Assembly (NCBI GenBank): GCA_019096065.1
Contig: JAGUCH010000006.1
Coordinates: forward strand, 392,001-456,000
From: Paracyclopina nana
Lineage: Eukaryota > Arthropoda > Copepoda > Cyclopoida > Cyclopettidae
DNA length: 64,000 bases
Direction of reading: 5' to 3'
The notes under the pieces are model-generated. The model saw nothing but the letters and a program-made list of their open reading frames with translations, did no database searches and had not been told where the DNA came from. This document shows, piece by piece, positions 3,194-43,329 of the stretch (its first letter is position 1; each line of letters starts with the position of its first letter). Made by a program: the position numbers and the translations under genes.

Positions 3194-3259
3194 TTATTCG
3201 TGTCTATACGAAAATAAAAACTTACTTGTGATAAAACCTTGTTTCATTCACGCGTCAAA

Positions 3260-5722
3260 ATGGCCTCTAACTATCCAAAAACCAGCACGGATTCCGAAGA
3301 AGATACGAGCCAGCACTGGAAAGATGCCATAAAGGACATTGAAGACGATCTAAAACGAGTCGCTGAGGTATTCATTGAATGGCGAAGAACACCCGTAGCC
3401 TTCATGAAAAGCGATATCAAAAAGAAAATCAGAACCTTAAAAGAGCTCAAACCTGACTTAGCTGTCCTCCAGGAACGAATCAACTCGATCTACAAAATGG
3501 ACTATGTTGATTACGATGATGGAACAGAACGAGACGAATGGGCTAGAGCTCTCGATGAAAAGCTAGACAAATTGCTCCTCAAAAGGCGAGCCTGGTTCGC
3601 CCAATTCAAGGTTTACCAGGCTGAATACGAAAAACTTCACCCGGATGAGTCTCAACTATCACTTGCAGAATCATCATATGTCTGTGAGTTCAAAGACTTG
3701 GATTACTCGAAACTTTCGAACCTGGGCAACAAAACCAGGGACGAAATGCTTGAAAAACGAGAAGCTCTCCGTGATGAAAACGAAAAAGAGGAATCGCTGC
3801 AAGCCAGCAAAGACTCCCCTGAACCTGATGATGACAACAAACCTTTCGATCTATCCATTCCGGAAAACGCAAAAGCAAATGAGCTGTACAAGCAGCTGAA
3901 GTGCTTCATTGCTGACCTGAAAAACAAGATAGAAACTTACGGAAATGACCCAAATCCGGACTTGTACCAGGAACGAAAACAAGTACTGGATGAATTGGAA
4001 TCAAAAATTGCGTTAAAAGCTCAAGAAGCAAAGGACGCTTTCAAACTAGCCAAACTGGACAAACGTCAAATCAGCTCATTCCAAGGGCATATCACCCGCC
4101 ACCGAAGCAGCTCAGGAGCTTTATTGAGGACCTTGAAATTACCTCAGCCTAAACCTCAAGCTCCAGCTTCTAAACCCACTCAAACTTCACAAATCCCGAC
4201 TTCAACCCCAGCTCCCTTGAAACAAGCTCAAAAAGAACCTGAAGTGTCCAATCCAGACGAAAAGGACATGAAAAGTTTCGAAAAAAGAGCTTTTGAGGAC
4301 CTGGAAGCCACAATTATGAAACAAAACATGAAAGCTCCTAAATTAGAGCTAACCCCAAACCCTCAACAAAATGAAAACTGGCCAGTGTCCAATATCAAAG
4401 GACCAAACCCGAATGCCAATGGCAACGGCAATGCCAATGGCAATGAAAATGGCAATGCCAGGCCAGTCAATTTTCATCGAAGTCGAAGTTCCAGAAACAG
4501 ATCACGTTCGCCTATAGATGAAGATGACGATGAAGAATTCATCACCATCAAAACTGACCGAAACGCGATCCTCAGGAAAGCTGAAAAAGACCCGATAACA
4601 AAGTGGTCTGACCTTTACAAAAAGGCCTTCAAACTCAGCCAAATATTTGACCCGAAAAAAGAGAAACTGCCTAAGGACACTGACACCTTAAAGGTGAAAT
4701 TCACGGGCAACATGGGAGACTATCCGGACTTTACAGACAGGTTCTTTCTGAAAGTCATCAAAAACACCACGATCTCCCCGGCTAATAAGCTTATGATCCT
4801 GGCTGACTGCGTTGAAGGTGAAGCTCTCACCGAAGTAAAAGACTGCAAACCTCTCAACCTGAAGAACCTGGCAAATGCAATAGAAAGGCTTGACCTTCTC
4901 TACGCCGATCAAAAAGGCCGCACAGGTTACTTGATGAACAAACTATGCAGTCTTCGCCCCTTGGATCACTCAAACAAAGACTTACTAATTGAGTACAAAG
5001 ACGTCATTTATGCTCTGAGAAAACATTACAGAGATGAAGGACAAAGGCTCAATTGCGACCCGGACATGGGCATCCAAACCATCCCATTTGGCATCCAATG
5101 GAAAGAGTCCTCCAAAATGGCATTCGAAACGTACATCGAGTCCAAAAACCTGAAATTGAACACAGAATCAGTGTTACAGTTCATGGAGTGGCACATGTCA
5201 CTCAATCGACTCAACGCTTATGAAAAAACTTTAAAAACCGAAAACACGGGCGCAAAAACAAAAAAGAAAGCAGAGCCCACTTTGCTAGTCAACTCTGACT
5301 CAGACACCGAAGTAGAATCTGATTACTCGTCTGACTTTTCAGAGACTTGCTTAGCTACTGCCACACGAGATGAAACCTTGTCCTCATGCCCAGTCTGTAA
5401 CAAAGACAACCACACGCTGCCAAAGTGCAGGAACTTCTACAAAATGGCAGCAAAGGACAAATACGAAAAGTGCATTGAAAAAGGGGTCTGCATGCGCTGT
5501 CTTACATCGAAACACAGACGAAATACTTGCAAAGCCCCAAAATGCAAGGCTTGCAATGGCCCGCATCACGGCCTCATGCACAAGCATTTTGACAATCGAC
5601 AGAAAGAATCGATGTCACGAAACATTGACAAAAAACTGGAGAAAATAGAAACCACGCTAGCTACGCTGCTCGAACGAAACAGTTTTTTAGAAAGCAGCGA
5701 ACCCAGCGCAGCGATCACATAG
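3260..5722 (+). CDS. gag: BEL/Pao Gag (820 aa)
   Basis: The retrotransposon capsid and nucleocapsid protein, which assembles the particle and binds the RNA. The frame is open seven codons further upstream (from 3239), but the first ATG is at 3260, so 820 residues are predicted. The N-terminal half is charged and probably helical, followed by a Pro-rich linker, an Asn-Gly run and an Arg-Ser segment. A DUF1759-like core follows (motif GNMGDYPDFTDRFF, then ADCVEGEALTEV), typical of BEL/Pao Gag. Three zinc-binding clusters lie near the C terminus. Two are CX2CX4HX4C knuckles, the first starting at Cys710, and the third is a Cys/His-rich partial cluster. The last codons before the stop carry a T TTT TTA slippery heptamer (5683-5689) that would pass ribosomes into pol. 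Confidence 0.92.
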   Translation: MASNYPKTSTDSEEDTSQHWKDAIKDIEDDLKRVAEVFIEWRRTPVAFMKSDIKKKIRTLKELKPDLAVLQERINSIYKMDYVDYDDGTERDEWARALDEKLDKLLLKRRAWFAQFKVYQAEYEKLHPDESQLSLAESSYVCEFKDLDYSKLSNLGNKTRDEMLEKREALRDENEKEESLQASKDSPEPDDDNKPFDLSIPENAKANELYKQLKCFIADLKNKIETYGNDPNPDLYQERKQVLDELESKIALKAQEAKDAFKLAKLDKRQISSFQGHITRHRSSSGALLRTLKLPQPKPQAPASKPTQTSQIPTSTPAPLKQAQKEPEVSNPDEKDMKSFEKRAFEDLEATIMKQNMKAPKLELTPNPQQNENWPVSNIKGPNPNANGNGNANGNENGNARPVNFHRSRSSRNRSRSPIDEDDDEEFITIKTDRNAILRKAEKDPITKWSDLYKKAFKLSQIFDPKKEKLPKDTDTLKVKFTGNMGDYPDFTDRFFLKVIKNTTISPANKLMILADCVEGEALTEVKDCKPLNLKNLANAIERLDLLYADQKGRTGYLMNKLCSLRPLDHSNKDLLIEYKDVIYALRKHYRDEGQRLNCDPDMGIQTIPFGIQWKESSKMAFETYIESKNLKLNTESVLQFMEWHMSLNRLNAYEKTLKTENTGAKTKKKAEPTLLVNSDSDTEVESDYSSDFSETCLATATRDETLSSCPVCNKDNHTLPKCRNFYKMAAKDKYEKCIEKGVCMRCLTSKHRRNTCKAPKCKACNGPHHGLMHKHFDNRQKESMSRNIDKKLEKIETTLATLLERNSFLESSEPSAAIT
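5683..5689 (+). promoter_or_regulatory. candidate -1 ribosomal frameshift site (T TTT TTA)
   Basis: In the gag frame the codons are AGT TTT TTA GAA, so the heptamer T TTT TTA is exactly in register for simultaneous slippage. A -1 shift enters the frame of pol. That frame has no stop from the heptamer to the pol ATG at 5731 or beyond, so a continuous Gag-Pol results. Gag ends 33 nt after the heptamer. I could not see a clear stimulatory hairpin or pseudoknot downstream by eye. Confidence 0.7.
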
Positions 5723-5730
5723 CAACTAAA

Positions 5731-8700
5731 ATGCCTGAAGCAGTCGCCCTACAAATGATCGAAATAAAAAGACAGCTAGACTTACCTAAACTGACCACAA
5801 ACAAGTGCTTTAGAGTAGTCCCTGTCATTGTTTCTAATGGCGACAAACAAGTTAAAACTAACATGGTGTTAGATGAAGCTTCAAGTAATACCTTCATCAG
5901 CACTAGTTTACACAAAGCTTTAAACCTTCAAGGCCAAAAAGTTAACTATTCGGTTTCAACTATAAATGACAAAGTCCAAGACATGAAAAGCTACAGATGC
6001 AATGTCAATATCAGACCAGTCTTTAAAACGAGGCAAAACTTTGACATTCAAGCTTACACGTCTGACGGCATCAACAAACTAATAAAACTGCCTAACTACG
6101 AAAAACTTAAAAGGCAATTTGATTTTTTGAAGCCAATTGACTTCCCAAAACTGCATAATGGACCAGTTGAAATCCTTCTAGGAATCAACTATCCAACTTT
6201 GCATACAAGTTTCAAAGACATTTCATCCGGAATGGAAAACTCGCCACTAGTCAGAGAAACTGTTTTTGGCAATACACTGACTTATTCAAATCCGGATTCA
6301 AAACAAAATTCAAGTGCAACACTGCTAACTCACGAAATTGTGCAAAACGAGTGCCCAGAACTGAAAGAGATCATGTACGCACTTTTCGATGATGACAGTC
6401 AAGGCCTGAAACTAATCGAAAGTAACGAATACTTGACCGCAGACGAGATCAAAGCCAGAGACATCATCAAAGGCAGCATCCACACTAATGCCAAAGGCAA
6501 CAAAGAAATGGATGTCCCCTGGTACTCATGGCCTGATCCACCTCCTCTGCCAAATAACTACTATCAAGTCTACACTTTTGAAAAGAAACAAGAGGACAAA
6601 TTGGGTCCTGAAAACATGAAACAAGTGGACAAAGCCATAGATGACATGGTCAAACACGGAGCATTAAGACTTCTTCGAGATGACGAAGACAAGCTCATTG
6701 GCTTTTACATACCTCGAGTAATGGTGGTCAAACTTGACAGACTAACTATGAAAGTTCGAGTTTGCATGGATGCAGCTCGTCCATTTGGCAAAAACAAAGT
6801 CTCTTTAAACTCGCAAGTTATGACTGGCCAAAAACTTCAAGGCGATATATGGTCAATCTGGATGCGATTCCGGATGGGACTAAAAGGCTACATAGCTGAC
6901 GCCGAAAAAATGTTCTTAAACGTCCACCTTAGTGAAAAGGACAAGAAATTTCATAGACTAATTCATAGAGGCCAAGCTTATCAATTTGAGTCTTGGGTCT
7001 TTGGAAACGCAGCCTCGCCTTACGCTGCTTTATACACTATGAAAGAGATCTCTAAAGAAGGCAATTTGCATCCATTGACCGAATACGTGTTCAATGAATG
7101 CCTTTACATGGACGATATTTTGTTCAGCTGCGACAAAACGAGCGATGCACTTGCAGTTTACAATGATGTAAAAAACGTCCATGCAAAATCCAAAATGGTC
7201 TTTAAAAAGTGGGTCAGTAATGACAAAGACTTCATGTCCAAAATAGAAACTTCAGACTGGCATCCCACGTTTGACCTAAAATCAAAAACCCCAGATGTCA
7301 AAGCTCTAGGCATCAAATGGATCTCGAGCGATGACACTATTAGCTTTCAACCTTTGAAAACAAAACTTACTGATGATGACCTCAAAATCGTGACCAGACG
7401 ATACATCACATCAGTAGTGGCTCAAATTTTTGACCCCCAAGACTTATTGGCCCCATTTACCTTAAAAGGACGCCTAATAACTCAGGAAGTTTGGGGCTTA
7501 AATGATACTTTAAAACTTGGCTGGGATGACAAACTCGTAGACTATAAGGAAAAAGACGAACGAATCGAGCCAATCCTCAAAGCTTTTCAAAACTATGTAA
7601 ATGACGGGTGCAGAATAAACGAAATCACTTTACCTCGATACATTTCTGTCAATCCGGAATCAATTACAAAACGTGAAATACATGCTTTCTGCGATGCCTC
7701 TCGTAAAGCTTATTGCGTCACGGTCTACATTAGAACCTTTTATAAAACTGACGATGAAAACGAGCTTATAAAAGCTCATCTTATTGTAGCTAAAAAGAAA
7801 CTGATCTCATTTTCAGGGAGATCAATTCCAAAAGCTGAACTAATGGGAGCAGTCTGCGCTGCCCAAATAGTTCCAAACGTGGTCAAAAACTTAAAACTGG
7901 TCAATTACGAAGTGCCCAAAGAAAACATTCATTACTATCTCGACTCACAGTGCACCTTACAATGGATCAAGTTCACAAGCAGACGGCTTGAACAATTCAT
8001 TGCCACGAGGCTTGCACTAATAAGAGAAACAACTGAAAAAAGTCAATGGCATTACGTAAGGACCAATAAAAACCCAGCTGACCTTGGCACTCGATCATTG
8101 ACACTTGACGAATTCCTCAGTCAGCAAAACTTCTGGTTCAAAGGCCATAACCTCGAAAGTCCGGATTATGACTTCGATGAGGAGAACTTTGACGAAATGC
8201 CTGAAGAAGACCAAAACGAAATGAGGAACTCATTCGCAAGAATTTGTCTTTTCAGTCATCTAAAACTCAAAAACTATACTCCGTTCATGTCTTTTGACAA
8301 TATACGAGCTCTGTTCAAATTAGATGCCTCTTGGCCTGAGAAACAGCCAAATGACCTAATAAAAACTGTATCAAAACGTCCAATCATTTTCACCGAAACG
8401 TACTTAAAAACTCACTTCAATGACCTTAGCAAACTGTTAAAACGAGTCTCTACTCTAGAAAATGGAAAATTCAGACTTTGCGCAAGACGCTTAGCAAGTC
8501 CGGATTGCACTGGAGAAACTCGCAAAAAGCTGGAAAGCTTTAACCTAAAGGCCAAGCGCCCACTACCTCAAAAGCTTCGCTCCGCTCTGATTTTTATCAT
8601 AAAAGAAGCACAAACAGCAGCTTTTTCTCGTGAAAGTTCTAACCTAAAGGCAGAACTGGCCAGCTTCAATGCCAAGCTAGATGCAAACGGCATCGTACGC

Positions 8701-9921
8701 GGGGAATCACGAGTAGAAGACTTCGCAGCACTGTCTGTATACCAAAAACGGCCAATTATACTTGACAAAGACTGTCATCTCACAAAACTTTTAGTACAAA
8801 ACGTTCATGAAGTCAATCATGCACCTTTAAAAGAGACAATAATGGAAGTCAATCGATTCTTCCAAATAAAAGGACTACGTGTGCTTGCTAAAAACGTAAT
8901 CAGACACTGTCTGATATGCAACTTAACAAAAGGTAAACCATATCAAAGTCAGCACATGGCTCCGCTTCCGGATTCGAAACTCGAAACACTAAAACTTTTT
9001 GAATCCATCTCAATTGACTTTGCGGGCCCAGTCAAAGTAAAAATTGGACGCGCAATCCATAACTACTATTTGCTGATCATAGTCTGCCAACAAACTCACG
9101 CTTTTCACATGGAAATCACGGAAAGTATGGCAACTGAACATATTATAACTGCTCTACAAAGGTTTTGCAGCAAACGAAGGATCCCGAAAAATGTCAGATC
9201 TGATAACGCAGCTCAATTTTGTTGCGCCAAGAAACTATTGATACCTGACATGAAGACAATACAAAATACCTTAAACATTGAAAACTGGGAATTCTCACCT
9301 GTTTACAGTCCTCAAAACAATGGACTCGCTGAACGAATGGTAGGCTTAGCGAAAGCTAGACTTCCATGTCTAGAAAGCCACGAATTCTCCCATGATGAAC
9401 TATTGACGGCTTCTGAAATGATAATAAACTTAATAAACAATAGACCCGTCAATCCAATTACAACTGACGAAATAGAAGGCATTTTATGCATAAATGACTT
9501 GATAAAAGCAGGTCTAAACTTTGACAACAGCGTCCTTGAAGTAAAGGACGAAAACAGATTCACAAACCTCTATTTAAACATACGTGACGTAATCGATACT
9601 TACTGGCATCAATGGACAACTGCCATAATCGATGACCTAAAAAAGTTTCCTAAATGGACAAAATTTAGAGACAACCCAAAACTCGGTGAACTTTGCCTCA
9701 TAATGCAGTCTCCGGATGCAAAAAAGACATGGCAAGTTGCACCTCGCTATGACTGGAAATGGGGTAGAATAACAAAACTCATTCCGGACAAAGACGGATT
9801 AGTTCGAAAATGCGAAGTCCTGATTGCTCAGGACCAAAGTAAAACTAAAAAGTATAAAATAAAACCCGCGAAACTTGACATCTATTCTATTCGTCAATTG
9901 ATTCCGCTAAATATACTTTAA
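5731..9921 (+). CDS. pol: BEL/Pao Pol polyprotein (protease, RT, RNase H, integrase)
   Basis: A 1396-residue polyprotein that copies and integrates the element. In order: an aspartic protease with LDEAS in place of LDSGS (Asp48); reverse transcriptase with the first catalytic Asp in IADAEKMF and the YMDD box at residues 459-462; RNase H starting HAFCDAS (His651) with DSQ and NPADLGTR; an integrase zinc site (HX4H then CX2C); a DDE core of Asp1096 (IDFAGP), Asp1158 (RSDNAAQF) and Glu1201 (GLAERMV); and a DUF5641-like C-terminal domain with WGRI and GLVRKCEV. No stops or frameshifts interrupt it. The ATG at 5731 lies 8 nt after the gag stop, but translation as a Gag-Pol fusion by -1 frameshift is more likely. 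Confidence 0.95.
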   Translation: MPEAVALQMIEIKRQLDLPKLTTNKCFRVVPVIVSNGDKQVKTNMVLDEASSNTFISTSLHKALNLQGQKVNYSVSTINDKVQDMKSYRCNVNIRPVFKTRQNFDIQAYTSDGINKLIKLPNYEKLKRQFDFLKPIDFPKLHNGPVEILLGINYPTLHTSFKDISSGMENSPLVRETVFGNTLTYSNPDSKQNSSATLLTHEIVQNECPELKEIMYALFDDDSQGLKLIESNEYLTADEIKARDIIKGSIHTNAKGNKEMDVPWYSWPDPPPLPNNYYQVYTFEKKQEDKLGPENMKQVDKAIDDMVKHGALRLLRDDEDKLIGFYIPRVMVVKLDRLTMKVRVCMDAARPFGKNKVSLNSQVMTGQKLQGDIWSIWMRFRMGLKGYIADAEKMFLNVHLSEKDKKFHRLIHRGQAYQFESWVFGNAASPYAALYTMKEISKEGNLHPLTEYVFNECLYMDDILFSCDKTSDALAVYNDVKNVHAKSKMVFKKWVSNDKDFMSKIETSDWHPTFDLKSKTPDVKALGIKWISSDDTISFQPLKTKLTDDDLKIVTRRYITSVVAQIFDPQDLLAPFTLKGRLITQEVWGLNDTLKLGWDDKLVDYKEKDERIEPILKAFQNYVNDGCRINEITLPRYISVNPESITKREIHAFCDASRKAYCVTVYIRTFYKTDDENELIKAHLIVAKKKLISFSGRSIPKAELMGAVCAAQIVPNVVKNLKLVNYEVPKENIHYYLDSQCTLQWIKFTSRRLEQFIATRLALIRETTEKSQWHYVRTNKNPADLGTRSLTLDEFLSQQNFWFKGHNLESPDYDFDEENFDEMPEEDQNEMRNSFARICLFSHLKLKNYTPFMSFDNIRALFKLDASWPEKQPNDLIKTVSKRPIIFTETYLKTHFNDLSKLLKRVSTLENGKFRLCARRLASPDCTGETRKKLESFNLKAKRPLPQKLRSALIFIIKEAQTAAFSRESSNLKAELASFNAKLDANGIVRGESRVEDFAALSVYQKRPIILDKDCHLTKLLVQNVHEVNHAPLKETIMEVNRFFQIKGLRVLAKNVIRHCLICNLTKGKPYQSQHMAPLPDSKLETLKLFESISIDFAGPVKVKIGRAIHNYYLLIIVCQQTHAFHMEITESMATEHIITALQRFCSKRRIPKNVRSDNAAQFCCAKKLLIPDMKTIQNTLNIENWEFSPVYSPQNNGLAERMVGLAKARLPCLESHEFSHDELLTASEMIINLINNRPVNPITTDEIEGILCINDLIKAGLNFDNSVLEVKDENRFTNLYLNIRDVIDTYWHQWTTAIIDDLKKFPKWTKFRDNPKLGELCLIMQSPDAKKTWQVAPRYDWKWGRITKLIPDKDGLVRKCEVLIAQDQSKTKKYKIKPAKLDIYSIRQLIPLNIL

Positions 9922-21453: not shown

Positions 21454-24400
21454 CAGACTGATTTTTTTGGCCAGGGCTTCGTTTGATACATCGATTCGGG
21501 TTTGATTTTTCAATTTTGGGCCCAAACCCCTTGTCACCATGTGGTTTGATGGGGTTTCAAGTTTGGCGGCCCCCAGGATGCTCTAAGGGGGTCAAATGGG
21601 GGCTGGTCTTATCAGCTGATCGAAACAAGGCAAATCTTTGCGGGGGCATGGCTGGAGGAGTGGAGGGCAGCCAAAATCAACTATGCCCCAATTCTTGAGG
21701 CCCCTGGGGGGTGTCCAGATGTCAGGGGAAAAAAGTTGGAAAAAGTCCTCGGCAAGGCCAAAAAAAGCCAAAATTTGCGTTTTCGGACCCAACTTTGAGG
21801 CCGATTATCTCCAAAGGCCACGGATGGATTTGGATTTTTTTGCTCCAAATGGCAGATAAAGATCCAAATTAGTACCAAGAAAAAATTTGGGAGGGTGTTA
21901 TTCCTCGTTTGTCCGCTACGAGCTCTCAAAGTTGGACAAAATTCACTTTTTCACAGTAGTAACAAAATGGCTACTTTTCTTCTGTCAAAAATTCTCGATT
22001 GGTCACAGTGGCCAAGTTGATGGCTGGAGTGTGGGCCATTTGGTCTGGAGGACACCTCTAGGGTCTCAGTGGTTGGTATCAGGTCCAACTTCCTTGGTAG
22101 GGCTAGGCCAGGCCCAGCCAGGAGCCTTGGAGCCGAGCCATCGCGACGGCCATTTCGATTCAGTGGCAATTCCAAGGGCCTTGCTGCCAATTCTGGGGAC
22201 AGATTGTTGACCATTTGGCCTTGATCACTCCTTTAGGGTCCCAACAGATGATTTCAAGGCTAACAGTCAAGGTACAGCAAGGTCAGCTTGATCCAGGGGG
22301 CTCGGAGTTCACTTGTGGCATTGGTGATTTGGCTACAGAAAGTCTTCGAGGGCCTCGATGGCCAAGTTCTCTGATCAGGTGAGGATTTTTTGAGCTGTAT
22401 CACTCCTTTGGCATCCCATGAGATGATTTCAAGTTCAACTTTGATGGTGATCATCAGCTGACTGCTTCCAGGGCTACCAGAGCTTATTTGCCAACTCAGC
22501 TGCCAATGGTTCAATGAAAGGCAGCATGGATCACAGCCAAGACCAAGGCTGGAGAGTGGATTTTTTAGGCTGAATCAACTCAAATGGAAGCAAGGAGATG
22601 AAAGACAGTCTATTTTTCATGGTGTTATGCTCCCTTCTTCAACCAGGAGTGCCAAAGCTTCATGGGAACAAAAGTCGAAAATGGCTTCAATAAAGAGCTC
22701 CATTGATTGCAGCCAAGACGAGCGATGACAAGTCACTTTTTTGCTCCAGCTCAGCTCAGGGGGTGCCAAAGAGAATTTAGAAGGTGTAAACTTTCAGGTG
22801 TTGTGCACCTTTCATGGTTCTGGATGCGCAAAACTTTCATGTGATAGCCAGAGCTCAAATAATAACAACTGCTACTCACGGATGAAAAAGGCTCGCGCTC
22901 GACAAATCGCGGATTGAACTTGACTTTTTTGGTCCAGCTCAACTTCAGTGGTGCCAAAGAGGCTGTGGAATGTGAAAAATTTCGGGTGTTCTCCATATTT
23001 CATGATTCTGGACTGGGCTAAGTTTTATGGAGTGACAGCCACTATTATGCCAAGTGCTGCTAGTCGCGGATGAAAATGGGCTCGCGCACAGCAAATCGCG
23101 TGTGGAATGCAATTTTTTTGGTCCAGCTCAACTCCATTGGTGCCAAAGAGGCTGTAGAATGTAAAAAATTTCGGGTGTTCTCCATTTTTCATGATTCTGG
23201 ACTGGGCAAAGTTTTATGGAGAGAGGCGTTTTCCGTTTGCGAGTATGCAGTATATTTATTATTATAGGAGCAGCAGTGCCAGGAAAGTTTTGCGCATCCA
23301 GAACCATGAAAGGTGCACAACACCTGGAATTATACACCTTCTAAATTCTCTTTGGCACCCACTGAGTTGAGCTGGGGCAAAAAATTCTCATTTTATCGCG
23401 GACTTTTTTGATCTTCAGCATATATATATTGTGGCCCTATAAATATGGCTGAAGAAAAAAGTTTAGCACATGTAAAATCGCGATAGGTGCATAACACCTG
23501 AGATTTTACACCTTCTAAATTCTCTTTGGCACCCACTGAGGAGATCCAGGCCAAAAAAGTCGAGTTCCATCCGTGAATTTTTGATCGCGAGGCATTTTCC
23601 GTTTGCGAGTAGCAGTTGCTACTATAGGAGCAGCAGTGCCAGGAAAGTTTTGCGCATCCAGAACCATGAAAGGAGCGCAACACCTGACAGTTTGCACCTT
23701 CTAAATTATCTTTGGCACCCACTGAGATGAGCTGGGGCAAAAAATTCGCATTTTATTGCGGACTTTTTGAGCGAGAGCCCACTTCTTCGGCATATATACT
23801 ATTATTTTGGCCCTCTATATAAATGGCTGAAGAAAAAAGTTTAGCACATGTAAAATCGCGATAGGTGCATAACACCTGAAATTTTACACCTTCTAAATTC
23901 TCTTTGGCACCCACTGAGGAGATCCAGGCCAAAAAAGTCGAGTTCCATCTGTGAATTTTTGAGCGCGAGGCGTTTTCCGTTTGCGAGTAGCAGTTGCTAC
24001 TATAGGAGCAGCAGTGCCAGGAAAGTTTTGCGCATCCAGAACCATGAAAGGTGCACAACACCTGACAGTTTGCACCTTCTAAATTATCTTTGGCACCCAC
24101 TGAGGTGATCCAGGCCAAAAAAGTCGAGTTCCATCCGTTTTTGAGCGCGAGCCTTTTTCATCCGTGAGTAGCAGTTGTTATTATTTGAGCTCTGGCTATC
24201 ACATGAAAGTTTTGCGCATCCAGAACCATGAAAGGTGCACAACACCTGAAAGTTTACGCCTTCTAAATTCTCTTTGGCACCCCCTGAGCTGAGCTGGAGC
24301 AAAAAAGTGACTTGCCATTGCTCATCTTGGCTGCAATCAAAAGAGCTCTTTATTGAATTTATTTTCAATTTTTGTTCATACGAAACTTTGGCACTCCTGG

Positions 24401-25591
24401 TTGAAGAAGGGAGCATATCACCATGAAAAATAGACTTTCTTTCATCTCCTTGCTTCCATTTGAGTTGATTCAGCCTAAAAAATCCACTTTCCAGCCTTGG
24501 TCTTGGCTGTGATCCATGCTGCCTTTCATTGAACCATTGGCAGCTGAGTTGGCAAATAAGCTCTGGTAGCCCTGGAAGCAGTCAGCTGATGATCACCATC
24601 AAAGTTGAACTTGAAATCATCTCATGGGATGCCAAAGGAGTGATACAGCTCAAAAAATCCTCACCTGATCAGAGAACTTGGCCATCGAGGCCCTCGAAGA
24701 CTTTCTGTAGCCAAATCACCAATGCCACAAGTGAACTCCGAGCCCCCTGGATCAAGCTGACCTTGCTGTACCTTGACTGTTAGCCTTGAAATCATCTGTT
24801 GGGACCCTAAAGGAGTGATCAAGGCCAAATGGTCAACAATCTGTCCCCAGAATTGGCAGCAAGGCCCTTGGAATTGCCACTGAATCGAAATGGCCGTCGC
24901 GATGGCTCGGCTCCAAGGCTCCTGGCTGGGCCTGGCCTAGCCCTACCAAGGAAGTTGGACCTGATACCAACCACTGAGACCCTAGAGGTGTCCTCCAGAC
25001 CAAATGGCCCACACTCCAGCCATCAACTTGGCCACTGTGACCAATCGAGAATTTTTGACAGAAGAAAAGTAGCCATTTTGTTACTACTGTGAAAAAGTGA
25101 ATTTTGTCCAACTTTGAGAGCTCGTAGCGGACAAACGAGGAATAACACCCTCCCAAATTTTTTCTTGGTACTAATTTGGATCTTTATCTGCCATTTGGAG
25201 CAAAAAAAATCCAAAATCCATCCGTGGCCTTTGGAGATAATCAGCCTCAAAGTCGGGTCCGAAAACTCAAATTTTGGCTTTTTTTGGCCTTGCCGAGGAC
25301 TTTTTCCAACTTTTTTCCCCTGACATCTGGACACCCCCCAGGGGCCTCAAGAATTGGGGCATAGTTGATTTTGGCTGCCCTCCACTCCTCCAGCCACACC
25401 CCCGCAAAGATTTGCCTTGTTTCAATCAGCTGATAAGACCAGGCCCCATTTGACCCCCTTAGAGCATCCTGGGGGCCGCCAAACTTGAAACCCCATCAAA
25501 CCACATGGTGACAAGGGGTTTGGGCCCAAAATTGAAAAATCAAACCCGAATCGATGTATCAAACGAAGCCCTGGCCAAAAAAATCAGTCTG
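21454..25591. mobile_element. 4.1-kb TTAA-flanked element with giant inverted arms
   Basis: The ends are CAGACTGATTTTTTTGG and its exact inverse, each bordered by TTAA (21450-21453 and 25592-25595). That fits a TTAA-targeting transposon such as the piggyBac or Kolobok groups. Arms of about 1.48 kb (21454-22930 and 24115-25591) mirror each other closely, and open frames in one arm recur exactly in the other (21887-22210 with 24833-25156; 22260-22514 with 24529-24783). The middle holds several diverged tandem modules around GCGCATCCAGAACCATGAAA. No transposase is visible, so it is non-autonomous. Confidence 0.9.
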
Positions 25592-25595
25592 TTAA

Positions 25596-27519
25596 GGCAG
25601 ATCTGCTTTGGCAAAAAGCAACCATTTGGAAGTGGAAACCCCCAGAAATTATTCAAAATGTTCTAAATATTCTTCCTATGCGTTCACGGTCGAACCGAGC
25701 ACGAAAAATGAGTTCAAGTGTCAAAAAGGCAAAATTGCACTTTGTCACTTTAATTCAATTTTTATGCTCTCTCAGCGAGAAATGTAAAAAACCTTGGAAA
25801 TATAAAGCTCGAAATGCGCTCATTTTACTACGCCTCGAATATGAAAAATCGGATTTAGATTGAACTTGTTGATTTTGAAATTTGAACGTGCACCGAGGGC
25901 GAAAATCCGTTAAAACGGCCGCTTTGATGGCGCGTTTTTTCAAACGCTTTCGGCCCAGTGTGTGATTTTACCGACGAAATTCCGGATAAAAAAGCGGGCT
26001 TACCTTGATCAAGATTTTGTCACCTCGAGCTGAGTTTCCAAAATTCACTATTTAAAGATTTAGCCGATTAGCAGCCGACGGAATTCTTTCGCCTACGTCG
26101 ATTTCGCGAGTTTTTTGTTTTCTTTTACTACTGAGAATATTCGCGTTTCCAGATGTTGGCAACTTTTGACCAATTTCGTTTCTGGTTTTTTTAAAAAAAA
26201 ACTTGTTTGGAATGTTACTTTAAATATTCAAAATTCTTTAAAAAAACTAGATTATAATTTAATTCGGGTCACGTTTCCAGATGTTGGCAATTTTCGGCCA
26301 ATTTCGGACAAAATTGTTTTTGGCTTTTTTAAAAATAATCTATGAAAATTGTAATTTTGCTTCTAGAATCAAACTTCTTAAAAAAACTAAATTATTATTC
26401 AACTCGGGTCAAGTTGAGGGCAACTTAGTTAAGAATGCAAACTTTTCTCCACTTTTCTCATCAAATTACTCCGACTTTTTGCCTCTCAATGGTAATTACA
26501 CCCAAGGTGGTATTAAAAACAGTCCCCACAATTAAAAAAAGTGGAATGTGCGCAGTAATTTCAGCCCGAGAGTAATAGCATTTTTATTTGGCTTTGTTGT
26601 AATTTAACTCATTCAAATTCAGAAAGCATCCAAGTGATAATAAAACTGCACTTGTTTACCTTCTCAGCATTTTTTTAAAAAAGCCCGCCAAAATTTCTGA
26701 AGGCAAGCAAAGTGAGCAAAACAATATTTACAAGGTTTTTAATAAAGCGGTGTTTTTTTTTAAACTTTGGCGCCAGTGTGCATCAATTGTGCCAAGGTGA
26801 GAACTCCAACTGAGTCAAAATAGCCAAAAGGTTGCTGATATAAAAAAGTAGTGCAACACTTACTCTAAAGAACCTTTGAACAAGTCAATTTTAAAATTGC
26901 CAATCTAAATGCAAAAAGCTCGTATTTTTTGTTGGCGTACACGCATTCTTATTAACACTAATGGGACTGTGAGTACCAAAAGAGTCTTAAAAAATCGTAA
27001 ACTTAAGTCAAGGAAATAGTGATAATTTGAGGTGAAAAATACCTCTGAGTTATCAAAAAATGCCAAAATTATTTTTGAAAAAATCCTTTCAGCAAAAAAA
27101 TTAAATTGTAGCTTTGGTGAAATTAAAAGTGACCCCCTTTTTCTTGATTTAAGACCTGAGAAATGGAGCTAAGCATTTAATGATTTTATAAAGCCGTCAT
27201 GAAAAAGGAGATTAGGAAGGCGCGGTGGACACGCCCATGTGTTTGTCTGGTGTGACCAATTCGATTTTCGTGATCATCGCACATTTTTCTAGATTAATAT
27301 CATTTATGCCTCTCAAAAAAGTTGATTCGCCATAAGAAAGTGAACTACAGTGGTATAAGAATGATCAACTCTTAAAACACCAAAAAGTAAGTTAAGATAT
27401 CATTTCAAAAGAACATTTTTTCAAAGGAGTTGTTTTGAAATGCAAGTCGTTCAAGCCCATATGGATCATGGAGGGCTTATGTGGGTGCTTTAAAAGTCTC
27501 AAGTCCACCAAGAACATCC
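25596..27519. other. AT-rich intergenic DNA with one tandem duplication
   Basis: Two diverged copies of a ~135-bp unit lie at about 26140-26272 and 26273-26410, both starting near GTTTCCAGATGTTGGCAA and ending near TTCAACTCGGGTCA. No gene was recognised in the rest. Confidence 0.5.
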
Positions 27520-28200
27520 TCTGCGGACTTGGAGTCCTTTGTGGACTTGAGAGTCCTCTGCGGACTTGAGAGTCCTCTGCGGACTTGAGAGTCCTCTGCG
27601 GACTTGAGAGTCCTCTGCGGACTTGAGAGTCCTCTGCGGACTTGAGAGTCCTCTGCGGACTTGAGAGTCCTCTGCGGACTTGAGAGTCCTCTGCGGACTT
27701 GAGAGTCCTCTGCGGACTTGAGAGTCCTCTGCGGACTTGAGAGTCCTCTGCGGACTTGAGAGTCCTCTGCGGATTTAGGATTCCAGTCCAGTAAGAACTG
27801 TCAGGTCAAGGAAGAACTTTTAGGTGAAGAAAGGACTTTCTGGTCCATGAAGGACTTTTTAGGTCAAGAAAGGACTTCCGAGTCCAGGTAGGACTTTTAA
27901 TGTCCAGGAAGGACTTCCAAAGGACTTCCAAATCCAGGATGGAGTTCCAAGTCCAGGAAGGAATACCAAGTCCAGGAAGGACTTCCAACTCCAGGAAGGA
28001 CTTCCAACTCCAGGAAGGACTTCCAAGTCCAGGAAGGACTTCCAAGTCTAGGAAGAAATTCCTAGTCCAGCTAAGACTTTAGTCAAAAAGGACTTTAAGT
28101 TAAATAAGAATTCATTGGTCAAGTAAGGACTTTTATGTCAAGTAAGGACTTTTTAGTTCAGTAAGGATCGACTTTCAAGTCCAGTTGAGACATAAAGTAT
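27520..28200. repeat. 19-bp minisatellite grading into a GGACTT array
   Basis: About twelve near-identical 19-bp units TTGAGAGTCCTCTGCGGAC at 27548-27775. They are followed to about 28200 by degenerate units built on AGGACTTCCAAGTCCAGGA. The second half holds the palindromic core GGACTTCCAAGTCC. Confidence 0.95.
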
Positions 28201-28974: not shown

Positions 28975-29460
28975 GAGTGACTATTGATGAGAGACTTAAT
29001 TGACTTGCGATTGAAACAGTGACTTGATGAGTGACTTCCATGTCATGTTATTCATGAGCATTATATGTGACTTGATGGACAATTTAAAGTGACTTATTTT
29101 GTGACTTGATGAGTAACATTTTGAGTGACTTGTTGAGTGACTTAGCGAGTGACTTGATGCGTATTTCGACTTGTCACTTAATGAGTGACTTAATGAGTGA
29201 CTTAACGAGTGACTTAATGAGTGACTTAATGAGTGACTTAATGAGTGACTTAATGAGTGACTTAATGAGTGACTTAATGAGTGACTTAATGAGTGACTTA
29301 ATGAGTGACTTAATGAGTGACTTGACAGGTGACTTGACAGGTGACTTGACAGGTGACTTGACAGGTGACTTGACAGGCAACTTGACAGGTAACTTGACAG
29401 GTGACTTCACTGGTGACTTGACAGGTGACTTGACAGGTGACTTGACAACTGACTCTTACT
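28975..29460. repeat. 12-bp minisatellite (GAGTGACTTAAT then GGTGACTTGACA)
   Basis: Clean 12-bp units GAGTGACTTAAT change at about 29320 into GGTGACTTGACA. Because 12 is divisible by 3, a chance open frame of repeated Met-Ser-Asp-Leu spans it; it should not be called a protein. Confidence 0.95.
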
Positions 29461-29734: not shown

Positions 29735-32700
29735 ATGAGGGCATTAAGATTATTTTTGTCTGTGGGACTCTTCTTAGTGCCACTATTTATGAAAAGCTTG
29801 GCTGCAGAAGAAGAAGATAATGAGGAATATTATGATGAGACAGTTGAAGAGTACTCAGATATTTCAGGGTCAGGAGATGACCAAAGTGATTACCAATACT
29901 CATATTCATACCAGGTGCACATTTAAAAAGTTTCATATTATTTACTTTGTGTTTGATATGTATTTTAAGGATTATAAGGATGTTGAGTCTGAGCTGGATA
30001 TCTTGCCACAAATGATCTCTTTGAGCCAATCAATAATAGTCAAAAAAGGTGAAACTGCCAAATTACCATGCCAAGCCACAGTAAGCATATTTTATGCACT
30101 GAAGAAAGGGTGACTTCAATTTTCTTTTGTTTCATTCAATAAGGATTCCTCACAGTTGGTCAGAATTTGGCAGAGGGATGATGGAAATGTCATATTTACT
30201 GGAAATGTCAAAGTGTCCAGACAGGAAAATCACCACTTAGACACTGAGCAAAATACCACTTTGGTGATAACTGATGCCCAACCACACGATGCTGGTAGTT
30301 ACACTTGCAGGGTCATGATCAGGGCCAGAGATGAAATTTCAGTCTCTCATCGACTGATAGTCAACACACAGGCCTTCCTAATTACTCCAGTGAGTATTTT
30401 TAAGTCTTTAAATTCAGCAACATCAATTAAAAAAGGGTAGAGTATTAGTATTTACAAATAAATTCAATTGTTACTTTTGGAAATCCTCCTGTAAGTCCTT
30501 TAACATAAAGGTCTGCTAAAAACCTATCTTGATAATTTCATACTACACTTTGTCCTTAAATGAAAAAGTAAAGAAAATTTACCTTACAAATACATGCAAA
30601 TAATACCTCCCAACTACCATTGTCTTATTTACCATTTTTATGATAAGTCTCCTGTAAGTCATTTTAGGCCTTGACGATTAATATTAAGTTATAATACTTT
30701 TGAAGGTACCAGAAGATGGCTTACTAAATGTTGCAGAAGGTGAAGATATTCTGATTCAATGCAAAGTAACAGGGGAAGAAGTTCCAGAATCGACAAATGG
30801 AACTATTCGATGGAACAAGGAAGGATCTCGATTCAGGGATGGTTCTTACACCTTGACTGGAGACCTTGAGTTGCCAATTGAGAATGTGACCAAAGCAGAT
30901 GCTGGAAAGTACTTTTGCACTGCAGCTTCAACCAAAGGTGCTTTCCTTATAAATCCCTTAGAAAACTCTCATAATTACATTTTTTTAGGTGAAGCAAAGT
31001 CAACACATGTTGAAGTCATAGTGCAGTTCAAGCCTGAAATTGTTTCTTTGACCAAAGCCAAAATGGAAACTGGAAGAGGACTCGAGGGTGAATTAACCTG
31101 TTTGAGTGTTGGTGAACCAGCCCCTAAAGTGACCTGGTACAAAGGCCATGAAGTGGTGCAGCTTGATGACAGGAAGAGTTACAAAAGTGCAGGATACAGA
31201 CACATTTTGCTCATAAAAAGAATGAATCCTGATGACATTGGAACTTACATGTGTTACACCATCAATGAGCTGGGATCAGCCCAAGACACCATAGAAGTGT
31301 CAATGGAAGATCTGAATGACATCCCAACTGGTCTGAGTGATGCCAATGTCAAGTAAGCATTTACATGTGTCTATTCTTCTATTTTCTTACTTAATAGTAC
31401 TTTTCAGGTCTTTTGATGATTATTCCAAGAAGGAAACTATTGGCATCAATTTAGAGGTGATTGAAAGTTTTAAAGAGAAAATTGAGAATGACTTAGCTCA
31501 GCTGAGAAATTTGACTTACTCCTTGAAAAAAGGATCAGAAAGTAAGATACATTTATTCTCTTGCAATACATTAATGAACTAATTTTCATAGAGGGAGACT
31601 CAACTTTTGATGCATCAGTGTTTGGAGACTTACAGAGACTTCAATTGGAACTCAGACAATTCCAAACAATTAGTGAGGCTCATGCCAAAGAAATCAAAAC
31701 TTTTGAGAGGACTGCTAAAGATGACTTTCAAAGAATTTGGGATCATGTCAATGAATTGCAAGAAGTGACCAATATCACAACCAAGCACATGGAGGATATC
31801 TATGATAAAGACATCTTGCCATTGCAAAACTTCAAAGCTTTGGCTGAGGCCAAACTCATCAAATTAAGAGAAGATGTTGACGAGTCAATGAAGTCTTCTT
31901 TTAATTCACCATCAACATCAAATACTTCAGAGGTGGCTTTAATAATGACCAAAACAAAGAGGATTTTAGATCACCTTGAGGAAGAGCAAATGAGACAAAA
32001 AGTTCAACTGGAAAAGCTGACCGAGTCTCAGACTTTAGGTGGATTTCAATGCATATTTATAATGTGCCATGACTAATAAGTTGTACTATAATTAACTTAT
32101 CTAGGCCTGACAAGGCATAGTTGTCTTAACCAGACTAAAAAGTCCCAACTAGGCTATGAAGTAAAACAAGGATAACAAAGTCTTGACTAGGGTTTCAAGT
32201 CTTAACTAGGTTCTCAGTCTTGGCTAATAAGTCTTGTAATAAGTGTGCTTAAGAATATAATCTATATAACTAAGTCTTACTTTAGCTTGGAAGTCTTAAC
32301 TAGGTTCAAAAGCCTTAACTTGATTGAGAAGTCTTAACTTGGCTTAGAAGTCTTAACTTGCCTAAGAAGTCTTAATTAGGCCTAGAAGTAATAACTTGGC
32401 TGAGAAGTCTCTACTAAGTTCAACCATGGATAAAAAGTCATGCTTAGAAGTTATCACTAATCCAAGCAGTCATGGCTAAGTAGTCTGGACTTTAATAAAA
32501 GTCTTAAAGCTGATATGTGTTAAATAAAAGCACATGAGTCTGGAATCAGGCTAAGAAGATCTTTTTACAACTTATGAGGCATTCCAGTCATTAGAAAGAA
32601 TTCTTTTTTTAACTTTTGAAGGCATGAATGTATCATTTCTTCATGACTGTATTGAAATCCACACTTTTAGTAAGGGGTGAAATCCAAAAGATTTTTCAAG

Positions 32701-34293
32701 ACATTGACAGCTTCAAGAAGCAATCAGCTTTTCAGTCTCAAGACACTCTAATGCTCCAAAGGGAGCTTCAAGGCCTACAAAGTGGGACAATTACAGACTT
32801 GTCTCATAAGCTGGAGTCTCATGCAAGAAGACTAGATGATTTGGATCATCACAAAGAAAAGTCTTTGGAAGACTTGAAAGATAACTCGGTGGAAACTGAC
32901 CAAAAGTTCTCCATCATGGTGAAAGAAATGCAGGCAGTCAAAAGTCAAATTTACTACTTGCAGCAGTCAATTTTGCAATTGAGAGGAGCCATAAAATCAT
33001 CTTCATCTGGTGGGGAAACTTCACTGGCCCCTTTGCCACCAACTTTTGTCAGTCCCAATGACATCACTGAGTTGCACTCAAAAGTAAACAGTTGTGCTCA
33101 GCAAAATGACATGGAGAGGATTCAAGCTTTAGTTGACTCAAGAAGTGCTCAGTTCAAAGATGCACTGAGTCAAGTGAATGCTGAGTTGAACTCAGCCAAA
33201 GAGAATGTGATTGAAATCCTGACCAAAAGTGAAGCTGAGATCAGAGCCAATGCTGAGAAAATCCAAGACATTGAGACTGCTGAGAGGAAGTACAACCTTG
33301 TCATCAAAGGTTTGCCACAAGAGAGGAAATTGGAGAGGCCAACTCACCTTGAGATGCTGGTGAAGAAGTTTTTCAGGCAAACTTTGAGACTAACCGGTCT
33401 CAACTTTGAGGAGGTAAACAAATCTAAAAATTCAGTATAAAATATGGAGCTGACTTTTTAAAGTGTTTGCCATAATATTTTATAATCTTCAGAACCATTA
33501 ATTTTTTTCCAAAAAAGTTCTTTGAAGAAAAATGTTTGCTAAAAACAACTAATTCTTTTTTTGTTAACAAATAAACAGCTGACTCCTTTTTTTGGAAAAG
33601 AAAATAATCAGCTGATTCATTTAAAAAAATAAACAAACAGTTGATAACTTCTTTTGAAAAACAAATAAACAGCTGACGTACTCCTTTATCAAAAAAATAA
33701 ACAAACAGCTGCACAGCTGATGACTTTTTTGAAACACTCAAATAGCTGATTCCCTAACTCAAAAAACCAAACAAACAGCTCATTCTTTTTATATATAAAA
33801 ACCAGCTGATGACATTTTTGAAGAACAAACAAAGCAGCTGATTTTTTGTGCTAGCTGAATGTTGTTTATTTTTGTTGTTCCAATGAGTTCACTTTGCATT
33901 TGTTTCAGGCTGAAAGACTCAGTTGCCCCCAGGTTGAAGGTGAAGATGCAAAATGTGCCATAAAAGTTAGATTCTCAAGTGTGAGGGAAAAGATAAAAGT
34001 TTTACAAGCCGGCAGAATTGCTGCAAATAACCTGAGAAATAAGGGAATTACACTCATCGAGGACTTCACAGATAAGGTGAGAATTTCTGAAGGATTTTCG
34101 TTGCTCGAGTAATCCACGGCATTCTATTTTTTTTCAGGTGCTGCAGCATAGGCAATCTTTGGCCCTTTTTGCTCGGAGAAGGGCGCGAAAAACCAAGAAA
34201 AAATGGGCGCTCAAATACAACGAGCTCTATTTTGATGGCAAAATCTTCATTTGGAATGATCAAGCCAAGAAAGTTGAGGAAAAGCTATCATAA
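29735..34293 (+). CDS. secreted three-Ig coiled-coil protein with LINE-1 ORF1p-like C-terminal domain (926 aa)
   Basis: Ten exons, all GT-AG and in phase: 29735-29914, 29970-30080, 30144-30389, 30706-30937, 30989-31352, 31408-31541, 31592-32038, 32671-33413, 33909-34076, 34138-34293. The start is an ATG opening a signal peptide (residues 1-24), then an acidic Tyr-rich stretch. Three Ig domains follow: Cys94-Cys152 with Trp106, Cys198-Cys250 with Trp215, and Cys294-Cys345 with Trp306, the last two ending DAGKYFC and DIGTYMC. A long coiled coil spans about 385-770. Residues about 778-926 (NLVIKGLPQE, then CAIKVRFSSVREKIKVLQAGR, then a basic tail with KYNELYFDGKIF) resemble the RRM and C-terminal domains of LINE-1 ORF1p-type proteins. 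No TM segment is seen. Extracellular or ER-lumen location is inferred; the function is unknown. An alternative acceptor at 30156 would drop four residues. Confidence 0.8.
32100..32560 (+). repeat. degenerate AAGTCTTAACTAGG repeats in intron 7
   Basis: The 632-nt intron between exons 7 and 8 of the Ig gene is filled with imperfect units such as GAAGTCTTAACTTGGCT. It is the same kind of short-unit expansion seen in the intergenic arrays. Confidence 0.75.
33414..33908 (+). repeat. intron 8 with repeated AACAGCTGA motifs
   Basis: This intron of the Ig gene carries about ten copies of the palindromic E-box word CAGCTG within AAATAAACAGCTGAT-like units (33575-33845). The stretch also leaves a minus-strand frame open by chance. 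Confidence 0.7.
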
Positions 34294-34337: not shown

Positions 34338-34343
34338 AATAAA
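34338..34343 (+). terminator. polyadenylation signal of the Ig gene
   Basis: AATAAA begins 45 nt after the TAA stop at 34291-34293, a normal short 3' UTR for a compact gene. Confidence 0.6.
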
Positions 34344-35394: not shown

Positions 35395-35900
35395 GTGGTT
35401 GGGTCTCAGTTTATCAGGGTCTCAGTTTACGTGGATCCTTATTCAGAAAGTTCTTGATTTAGAATTGTCTCAGTTTGGGACTGTCTTAGTTTGGGACTGT
35501 CTCAGTTTGGGACTGTCTCAGTTTGGGACTGTCTTAGTTTGGGACTGTCTCAGTTTGGGACTGTCTCAGTTTGGGACTGTCTCAGTTTGGGACTGTCTCA
35601 GTTTGGGACTGTCTCAGTTTGGGACTGTCTCAGTTTGGGACTGTCTCAGTTTGGGACTGTCTCAGTTTGGAACTGTCTCAGTTTGGGACTGTCTCAGTTT
35701 GGGACTGTCTCAGTTTGGGACTGTCTCAGTTTGGGACTGTCTCAGTTTGGGACTGTCTCAGTTTGGGACTGTCTCAGTTTGGGACTGTCTCAGTTTGGGA
35801 CTGTCTCAGTTTGGGACTGTCTCAGTTTGGGACTGTTTCAGTTTGGGACTGTCTCAGTTTGGGACTGTCTCAGTTTGGGACTGTCTCAGTTAATTAAAGA
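35395..35900. repeat. 16-bp minisatellite (GTCTCAGTTTGGGACT)
   Basis: About 26 highly homogeneous 16-bp units GTCTCAGTTTGGGACT between 35470 and 35890, with degenerate units on both sides to about 36090. Three overlapping chance frames arise because 16 is one more than a multiple of three. The high uniformity implies recent expansion. Confidence 0.95.
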
Positions 35901-41888: not shown

Positions 41889-43329
41889 ATGTCAGAATTC
41901 AAAGAAATCATAGGGAAACAATGGATTTTGAAGCAATTGCAGTCGATAGGTGAAAAAATTCATTTTTTATTGATTAGCTTTACTTTGAAAAAAAATACTG
42001 TTCAATGCAGGCTTGAAGAAGCCCACTGAAATTCAAGAGAAGTGCATTCCTGAGATTCTCAAAGGCCAAGATGTGGTGGGCTGTGCCAAGACGGGCTCAG
42101 GCAAAACCTTGGCCTTTGCTCTGCCAATCTTGCAAACCTTGTCAGATGATCCCTATGGAATCTACGCTTTGATCCTCACGCCAACCAGAGAATTAGCCTT
42201 TCAAATTGCTGACCAGTTCAGAATAATGGGCAAACCAATTGGCCTCAGAGATGTTGTGGTCGTTGGAGGTCGTGACATGGTCTTCCAAGGATTTGACCTT
42301 GCCGCAAGGCCACATGTGGTCATTGCCACTCCTGGCAGGCTGGCAGACCACTTGGAGTCTTGTGACACCTTCAGCCTGAAAAAGATCAAATATCTGGTGC
42401 TTGATGAGGCTGACAGGCTCCTGGATGGAGGCTTTGAGGGCCAGCTCAAGGCCATTTTTGACAGCCTGCCCAAGGCCAAGCAGACTCTCCTATTTTCAGC
42501 CACAATGTTTGACAGCTTAGCTGACATCCAAGCAAAGGTGGACTTGAGTGACCAAGTGTTCATCTGGAGGAAGGATGACCAGGAAGAGGTAGAAAAGACT
42601 GTGAAGCAGCTGAAACAAAGCTACATTCTGACTCCAATTGATGCTAGAGATGCCTACTTAGTGAATGTGATCAAGAACTTTGTGGAGAAGCAGCCGAGAG
42701 CATTAGTCATTGTCTTCACCAAAACGTGCAAAGCTGCCCAGCTGATTAGTATGACGTTATCCAGTCTTGGATTTCCAGCCGAAGCCTTGCACTCCATGCG
42801 ATCCCAAAAGGAGAGAATGGCAGCCTTGCAAGCCTTCAAGTCAAGCCAAGTGAAGATTTTGGTGGCCACTGATGTCGCTTCGAGAGGTCTGGATATTCCA
42901 GAGGTTGAGTTGGTCATCAATCACAATGTGCCCAGCGTGACCACGGATTACATCCACAGGGTTGGCAGAACTGCCAGAGCTGGCAAGCAAGGCCAATCCG
43001 TGACCTTGATCACCCCCAATGATGTGGAGTTGGTCAAGGCCATCGAGGAGATGGTTGGCATCGGCATGACTGAGTATGACGCCATCAAGGATGAGGAAGT
43101 GGCTGAAATCCATGTTCAAGTTGGAGTGACCAAGAGGGAGCAGGATATCAAATTGAGTGAGATGGATTATGATGAAAGGAAAAACATCAACAAGAGGAAA
43201 AAGTTGATCAGCAAAGGCCTCGATCCGGATGAGGTTGAGGCCGAGAAGAAGAAAGCTTGGAAGCAAAAGAAGAGATTGCAAGAAAAGCAGAGGAAAAAAG
43301 CAAAAATGATGCAGCAACAGAGCAAATAA
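41889..43329 (+). CDS. DDX49: ATP-dependent RNA helicase DDX49 (459 aa)
   Basis: A nucleolar DEAD-box helicase (yeast Dbp8 orthologue) of small-subunit rRNA processing. Exon 1 is 41889-41949, a 61-nt intron follows, and exon 2 is 42011-43329. The right start is the ATG at 41889: its frame runs into exon 2 and rebuilds the family N terminus (EFKEIIGKQWILKQL, then the Q motif KKPTEIQ). An ATG at 41921 is in another frame and would not join. Motifs: AKTGSGKT (46-53), PTRELA, TPGRL, DEAD (152-155), SAT (183-185), ATDVASRGLDIPE and HRVGRTARAG. The C terminus is Lys-rich, as usual for nucleolar helicases. An AATAAA signal lies at 43536-43541. Confidence 0.95.

Follow-up and report, generated by a model that had tools for sequence, protein, structure and literature searches.

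The stretch of DNA analyzed here (the window, 64,000 nucleotides in length) comes from the copepod Paracyclopina nana and spans positions 392,001 to 456,000 of contig JAGUCH010000006.1 (C6:392001-456000), in a genome of 92 Mb assembled in ten contigs, which was also the genome searched for relatives. At 29735-34293, on the forward strand, it contains a gene in which a secreted-looking immunoglobulin (Ig) protein appears to be joined to a module related to ORF1p, the first open reading frame (ORF) protein of long interspersed nuclear elements (LINEs). The ten exons proposed in the original prediction do join, through introns that are all of the GT-AG type, into a single frame of 926 residues, and the motifs quoted there (NLVIKGLP, CAIKVRFS, VLQAGR and KYNELYFDGKIF) are all found in the spliced protein. 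The splice sites were picked by reading the genomic sequence and not from cDNA, so the exons are predicted ones. The start codon of the frame has A at position -3, and an AATAAA hexamer on the same strand (34338-34343), 45 nt past the stop codon, is the likely poly(A) signal. When the whole genome was searched with the complete protein, 57 matches were obtained and, among the best 49 of 141 candidates, no second copy of the fused gene.

Exon 1 (29735-29914) encodes the start codon, a signal-peptide-like segment (residues 1 to about 24, recognized by hydropathy rather than with a dedicated signal-peptide predictor) and an acidic, Tyr-rich stretch (residues 24-66, net charge -16), judged by eye to be a candidate for Tyr sulfation. 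Pfam then recognizes three I-set Ig stretches (PF07679, E 1.4e-38): the first part of Ig1 lies in exon 2 (29970-30080) and its remainder in exon 3 (30144-30389), the bulk of Ig2 in exon 4 (30706-30937), and the end of Ig2 with the complete Ig3 in exon 5 (30989-31352). The six cysteines of this part amount to two for each domain. Intron 4 (30938-30988, 51 nt) keeps the reading frame and contains no stop codon, and its retention would place 17 extra residues between Ig2 and Ig3. The Ig trio aligns over its full length with three-Ig chains such as neurotrimin, OBCAM, IgLON5 and DIP-theta, although the scores of Robo and titin are higher. A close Ig donor elsewhere in the genome was considered and rejected, as the next-best place for the Ig part (among the best 49 of 141 candidates) reached E 1e-16 and is by eye a Robo-like run of Ig domains. 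Hydropathy revealed no membrane segment after residue 40 (the best 19-residue mean, 1.0, is below what a membrane span would need), and the C-terminus is charged and qualifies neither as a signal for a glycosylphosphatidylinositol (GPI) anchor nor as a membrane segment. Of the secreted Ig receptor that had been proposed, a signal-peptide-like start and the three Ig domains are found; since no membrane segment is seen, the protein looks secreted rather than a receptor.

The coiled-coil region begins in exon 6 (31408-31541, by heptad score), continues in exon 7 (31592-32038) as region 1, up to residue 571, and resumes in exon 8 (32671-33413) as region 2, the latter exon also encoding the first half of the RRM (from about 33270, residue ~771-772). 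According to a home-made score, heptads extend across residues ~385-770 and fade near 475-535 and 676-710; those upstream of the RRM occupy residues 711-787, with a single register shift near 746. Structures were modeled exon by exon with single-sequence AlphaFold. The models of exons 7 and 8 consist largely of helix (mean predicted local distance difference test, pLDDT, 73.9 and 59.6), which is weak support for helix, and contain breaks at about 493-497, 527-532 and 682-699. The coiled coil of some 380 residues that had been predicted is consistent with the heptads over that region, but it is not one rod, being interrupted where the heptads fade and the models break.

The remainder of the RRM and the start of the C-terminal domain (CTD) are encoded by exon 9 (33909-34076), and the rest of the CTD, with the basic stretch ARRRARKTKKKW and the stop codon, by exon 10 (34138-34293). 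On the strength of profile comparisons this module is a homologue of LINE-1-like (Type II) ORF1p. In a phmmer search of the PDB with the C-terminal 155 residues (E<=10), all three matches were LINE-1 ORF1p (E 0.13-0.18). A profile of the module and its seven genomic relatives, described below (A3), matched 2YKP (2.7e-7), 2YKO (2.9e-7), 2LDY (3.1e-6) and 2W7A (7.6e-4), the sole other match being at 1.4; the alignment ends at profile position 129-130 of 169, so that of the CTD only the initial part is covered. With an earlier profile of seven members, in which four joins were imperfect, 2LDY came out at 4.4e-6, 2W7A at 0.0011 and the next match at 0.098. A profile built from the seven relatives alone (A2) detects the spliced window protein, in a small local database, at 1.8e-19 (66.7 bits, residues 766-924), with an alignment that spans both introns inside the module and reaches residue 924 of the CTD, while the top score among 200 shuffled versions of the module was 12.5 bits. 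Scored separately, the three exon frames of the module reach 15.5, 8.7 and 34.7 bits, so joining the exons gains some score and introns 8 and 9 are supported.

That the module is unrelated to ORF1p and resembles it by chance is scarcely credible. Such a reading could appeal to Transposase_22 of Pfam, which matched none of the window pieces, the protein, the module or any of the eight modules (in the genome search with this family 0 of 14 controls matched, which makes it uninformative on absence), but LINE-1 ORF1p ranks first in the PDB with the single sequence and with all three profiles, and the A3 matches nearly refute it. Two results fit the homology less well: with A2 against the PDB, LINE-1 ORF1p tops six matches with an E of just 0.08, and the exon 8 model has, at low confidence, helix instead of strand over the initial residues of the RRM. 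The predicted order of coiled coil, RRM and CTD, and the relationship to ORF1p, are borne out by the PDB profile matches, the relatives-only profile and the heptads upstream; LINE-1 as the specific source is not. The donor lineage was not necessarily LINE-1 itself, because Type II ORF1s are described from L1, CR1, L2 and R1 elements (PMC4120745) and because a 2A motif lies upstream in six of the seven relatives.

The genome search with the module found relatives at six loci, and a search with one of these relatives added a seventh (C8:1.66M, C7:0.49M, C8:1.95M, C9:2.59M, C4:7.41M, C2:4.16M and C8:3.10M). A further match, L011 (E 0.76), was dropped as a probable false one after a look at its ORFs. 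At each of the seven relatives a GT-AG intron within the module restores the conserved reading, so that eight of eight modules are cut by introns; the exact splice sites of the relatives are provisional, as several GT/AG pairs are possible at most junctions and the best family fit was taken. Some of the raw matches contain one stop codon, which we take to be an intron-edge position. The eight modules hold 11 introns at nine alignment columns, with two positions common to two relatives each, and the two introns inside the window module occur only there. The window module is also the most diverged, with 26-28% identity to the others against 34-50% among the other seven.

A D(V/I)ExNPGP motif of the 2A type lies upstream on the same strand in six of the seven relatives (L012, L014 with L046, L015, L016, L017 and L045), and five of these motifs are inside the 10-kb loci. 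In the C8:1.95M relative the motif is 4.4 kb upstream of the module, where its membership of that gene is unproven, and no 2A motif was present in the stretch read for the C7:0.49M relative. The NPGP codon pattern had no match in the window, so the gene studied here differs from the 2A-bearing family in lacking the motif, while RRM and CTD sequence is common to both. By eye, several of the 2A-bearing genes have a Ser/Pro-rich stretch with an SP.K-type motif past the CTD. According to the title of a 2013 report by Odon, 2A motifs are said to occur in APE-type non-LTR (long terminal repeat) retrotransposons. Their use in cellular genes (StopGo) is described as rare in PMC12846837.

The two module queries returned just the eight intron-cut loci (besides the dropped L011) and no LINE copies with the same ORF1. 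PF14529, the one LINE-type endonuclease family searched, had no genome match with two candidates scored; three of 14 controls matched in that search, all of them prokaryotes, so that its sensitivity for LINEs is not established. RVT_1 matched in 150 of 150 scored cases (the best 150 of 658 candidates), which from their long open frames we take to be of the LTR type. A single-protein scan of viral contigs matched six pattern stretches, none of them a relative. We read the seven relatives as probable host genes rather than copies of an active element, and the eight modules look like a domesticated family, one member of which is fused to an Ig protein. The domestication that had been claimed for this gene is well founded, because introns lie within the module, seven intron-cut relatives exist and, among the scored matches, the fused gene has no second copy; the ORF1p-like genes may have survived the elements from which they came.

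Whether the Ig part and the ORF1p-like part belong to one chain is decided at the junction of exons 7 and 8, which are separated by the longest intron of the gene (intron 7, 32039-32670, 632 nt), itself containing a degenerate 19-nt repeat. We regard one fused protein as probable, because the heptad register, the codon scores and the modeled helices all favor it. All windows covering residues 529-612 have the same register, on both sides of the junction at 571/572, for which the probability by chance is about one in seven. Fifteen codons on each exon side of the junction score +0.34 and +0.27 per codon, whereas past the splice sites the scores drop to -0.24 (12 codons) and -0.34 (15 codons); the corresponding means are +0.33 for exons and -0.19 for introns, with an intron maximum of 0.41, for short windows and with the gene itself in the training set. 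The modeled helices extend to the junction from both sides with low to moderate confidence. This evidence is fair but indirect, and several features weigh against it: the phase match at the junction is uninformative, because the frame is preserved by 12 of 44 GT/AG pairs in the vicinity; exon 8 could start at an ATG that lies upstream of it, in frame, at 32628; and intron 7 has two AATAAA/ATTAAA hexamers.

These same features, together with the length of intron 7, would suit two adjacent genes, i.e. a secreted three-Ig coiled-coil protein (exons 1-7) and a domesticated ORF1p gene starting near 32628 (exons 8-10), as would the result of a phmmer search with the Ig pieces in the examined flanks of the seven relatives, where nothing was significant (best E 1.9). 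We consider this arrangement unlikely in view of the continuous register, the intron-like codon scores past both splice sites and the T at position -3 of the alternative ATG; four AATAAA/ATTAAA hexamers, moreover, occur in intron 8, which lies within the module. The same ATG might instead mark a second product, with an internal promoter or an alternative first exon yielding, in addition, a coiled-coil/RRM/CTD protein that stays inside the cell and, like L1TD1, acts on RNA or retroelements. This is very unlikely: promoter evidence was neither sought nor found, and with PF14529 unmatched in the genome no LINE target is seen. The single transcript of exons 1-7 and 8-10 that had been proposed is thus favored on indirect grounds, namely register, codon scores and helices, to which the phase match adds no weight.

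For the binding of nucleic acid, human arginines were mapped through the phmmer alignment of the module with the PDB, assuming an offset of 154, which we deduced from the residue numbers of human ORF1p. Human R202, R220, R235 and R261 are kept as R822, R840 and R855 (all in exon 9) and R880 (in exon 10) of the window protein. R261 is a key RNA-binding arginine of human ORF1p, and its equivalent is invariant across all eight modules. Human R206, R210, R211 and R262 are replaced by P826, G830, E831 and Q881, and the window module lacks the loop motif G[PS]xx[RK]G that all seven relatives possess. Given the lost arginines, binding may be weak or gone. The net charge is +14 for residues 771-926 and +9 for the CTD, whose stretch ARRRARKTKKKW also fits a heparin-binding pattern. 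Polyanion binding is plausible, the sequence evidence being mixed.

The four arginines lost of the eight mapped, the missing loop motif and the divergence of the window module could also mean that, in a real and secreted fusion, the ORF1p part has become a device for oligomerization and spacing and has lost the binding of nucleic acid and polyanions. This is a possible but somewhat unlikely explanation, against which stand the retained, invariant equivalent of R261 and the charge of the CTD. The reading we prefer, with a probability of about 0.5, is that one host gene makes a secreted chimeric oligomer, the Ig end of which binds a partner and the ORF1p end polyanions. Starting from the domain anatomy, the homology and the introns of the module, we infer the secretion of the whole chain, its oligomeric state, its ligand and its purpose as follows. 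The coiled coil would oligomerize the chain (LINE-1-like ORF1ps are described as trimers with a distinct RRM in PMC3905857), so that the Ig domains gather at one end of the oligomer and the basic RRM/CTD heads at the opposite end. The former would bind a cell-surface or extracellular partner and the latter polyanions such as extracellular nucleic acid or sulfated glycans, and as a whole the protein might serve in adhesion, as a bridging or opsonin-like factor. A point against passage of the complete chain through the endoplasmic reticulum is the distribution of its six N-glycosylation sequons, which include residues 483 and 533 in exon 7 and of which none lies beyond 533, so that the C-terminal half bears no sign of such passage. 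It is doubtful that the secreted Ig oligomer uses a captured LINE ORF1p RNA-packaging head to hold nucleic acid outside the cell, whether for sensing and opsonizing foreign RNA or for carrying RNA between cells; the Gag-derived protein Arc has been reported to carry RNA between cells.

Comparison with known systems emphasizes the composite nature of this protein. Like human LINE-1 ORF1p (2YKO, 2YKP, 2LDY and 2W7A), it has a coiled coil followed by a LINE-1-like RRM and a CTD, with arginine at the equivalents of R202, R220, R235 and R261. Unlike it, the module sits behind a signal-peptide-like start and three Ig domains, and the gene is cut by introns, has no ORF2 that we could see and lacks R206, R210, R211 and R262. 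The module is a derivative of a mobile element and not an element, because it contains introns and because PF14529, the endonuclease family searched, is unmatched in the genome. As in L1TD1, a host gene has been built from ORF1p with RRM and CTD; L1TD1 is not known to have an Ig domain or a signal peptide. L1TD1, also the subject of PMC11925450, is described in PMC4161310 as almost entirely LINE-1-derived, with two ORF1p-like regions. The three Ig domains behind an N-terminal signal recall the IgLON, Lachesin and DIP proteins. These end in a GPI anchor, whereas the window protein runs on into the coiled coil and the ORF1p module. Snail FREPs, which consist of Ig superfamily domains, an interceding region and a fibrinogen domain, likewise link secreted Ig domains through such a region to a C-terminal binding domain; this is an analogy of layout only, and unlike in FREPs no fibrinogen domain was found in the window protein by Pfam scan.

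In the surroundings of the gene, a pair of long ORFs at 3218-9918, of 834 and 1430 residues, looks by eye like an LTR retrotransposon, and an ORF with DEAD-box helicase motifs at 41989-43326, also seen by eye, probably belongs to a neighboring host gene. Another two ORFs occur both at 21860-22574 and, on the opposite strand, at 24469-25183; this suggests a long inverted repeat, the arms of which are separated by about 1.9 kb. Three minisatellite-like arrays, with units like TGACTTAATGAG and GGGACTGTCTCAGTTT, were noticed by eye near the gene (29100-29460, 35460-35900 and 27400-28080). Genome-wide, a six-unit (TTAGG)n pattern has 4337 forward and 3631 reverse matches, with none for the reversed control; TTAGG telomeres are typical of arthropods.

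The pairing of a secreted Ig protein with the RNA-binding half of ORF1p looks new, and no Ig/ORF1p fusion was found by title in the open-licence literature. Domestication of LINE ORF1p genes seems to be rare: L1TD1 was described in 2014 (PMC4161310) as the only known domesticated gene derived almost entirely from LINE-1, to which later additions are possible. Here a single animal genome has eight intron-cut genes with an ORF1p-like module, which in one of them is apparently attached to a secreted Ig protein. Should this be confirmed, the capture of transposons would reach into extracellular recognition, and one could ask directly whether an ORF1p head binds nucleic acid outside the cell.

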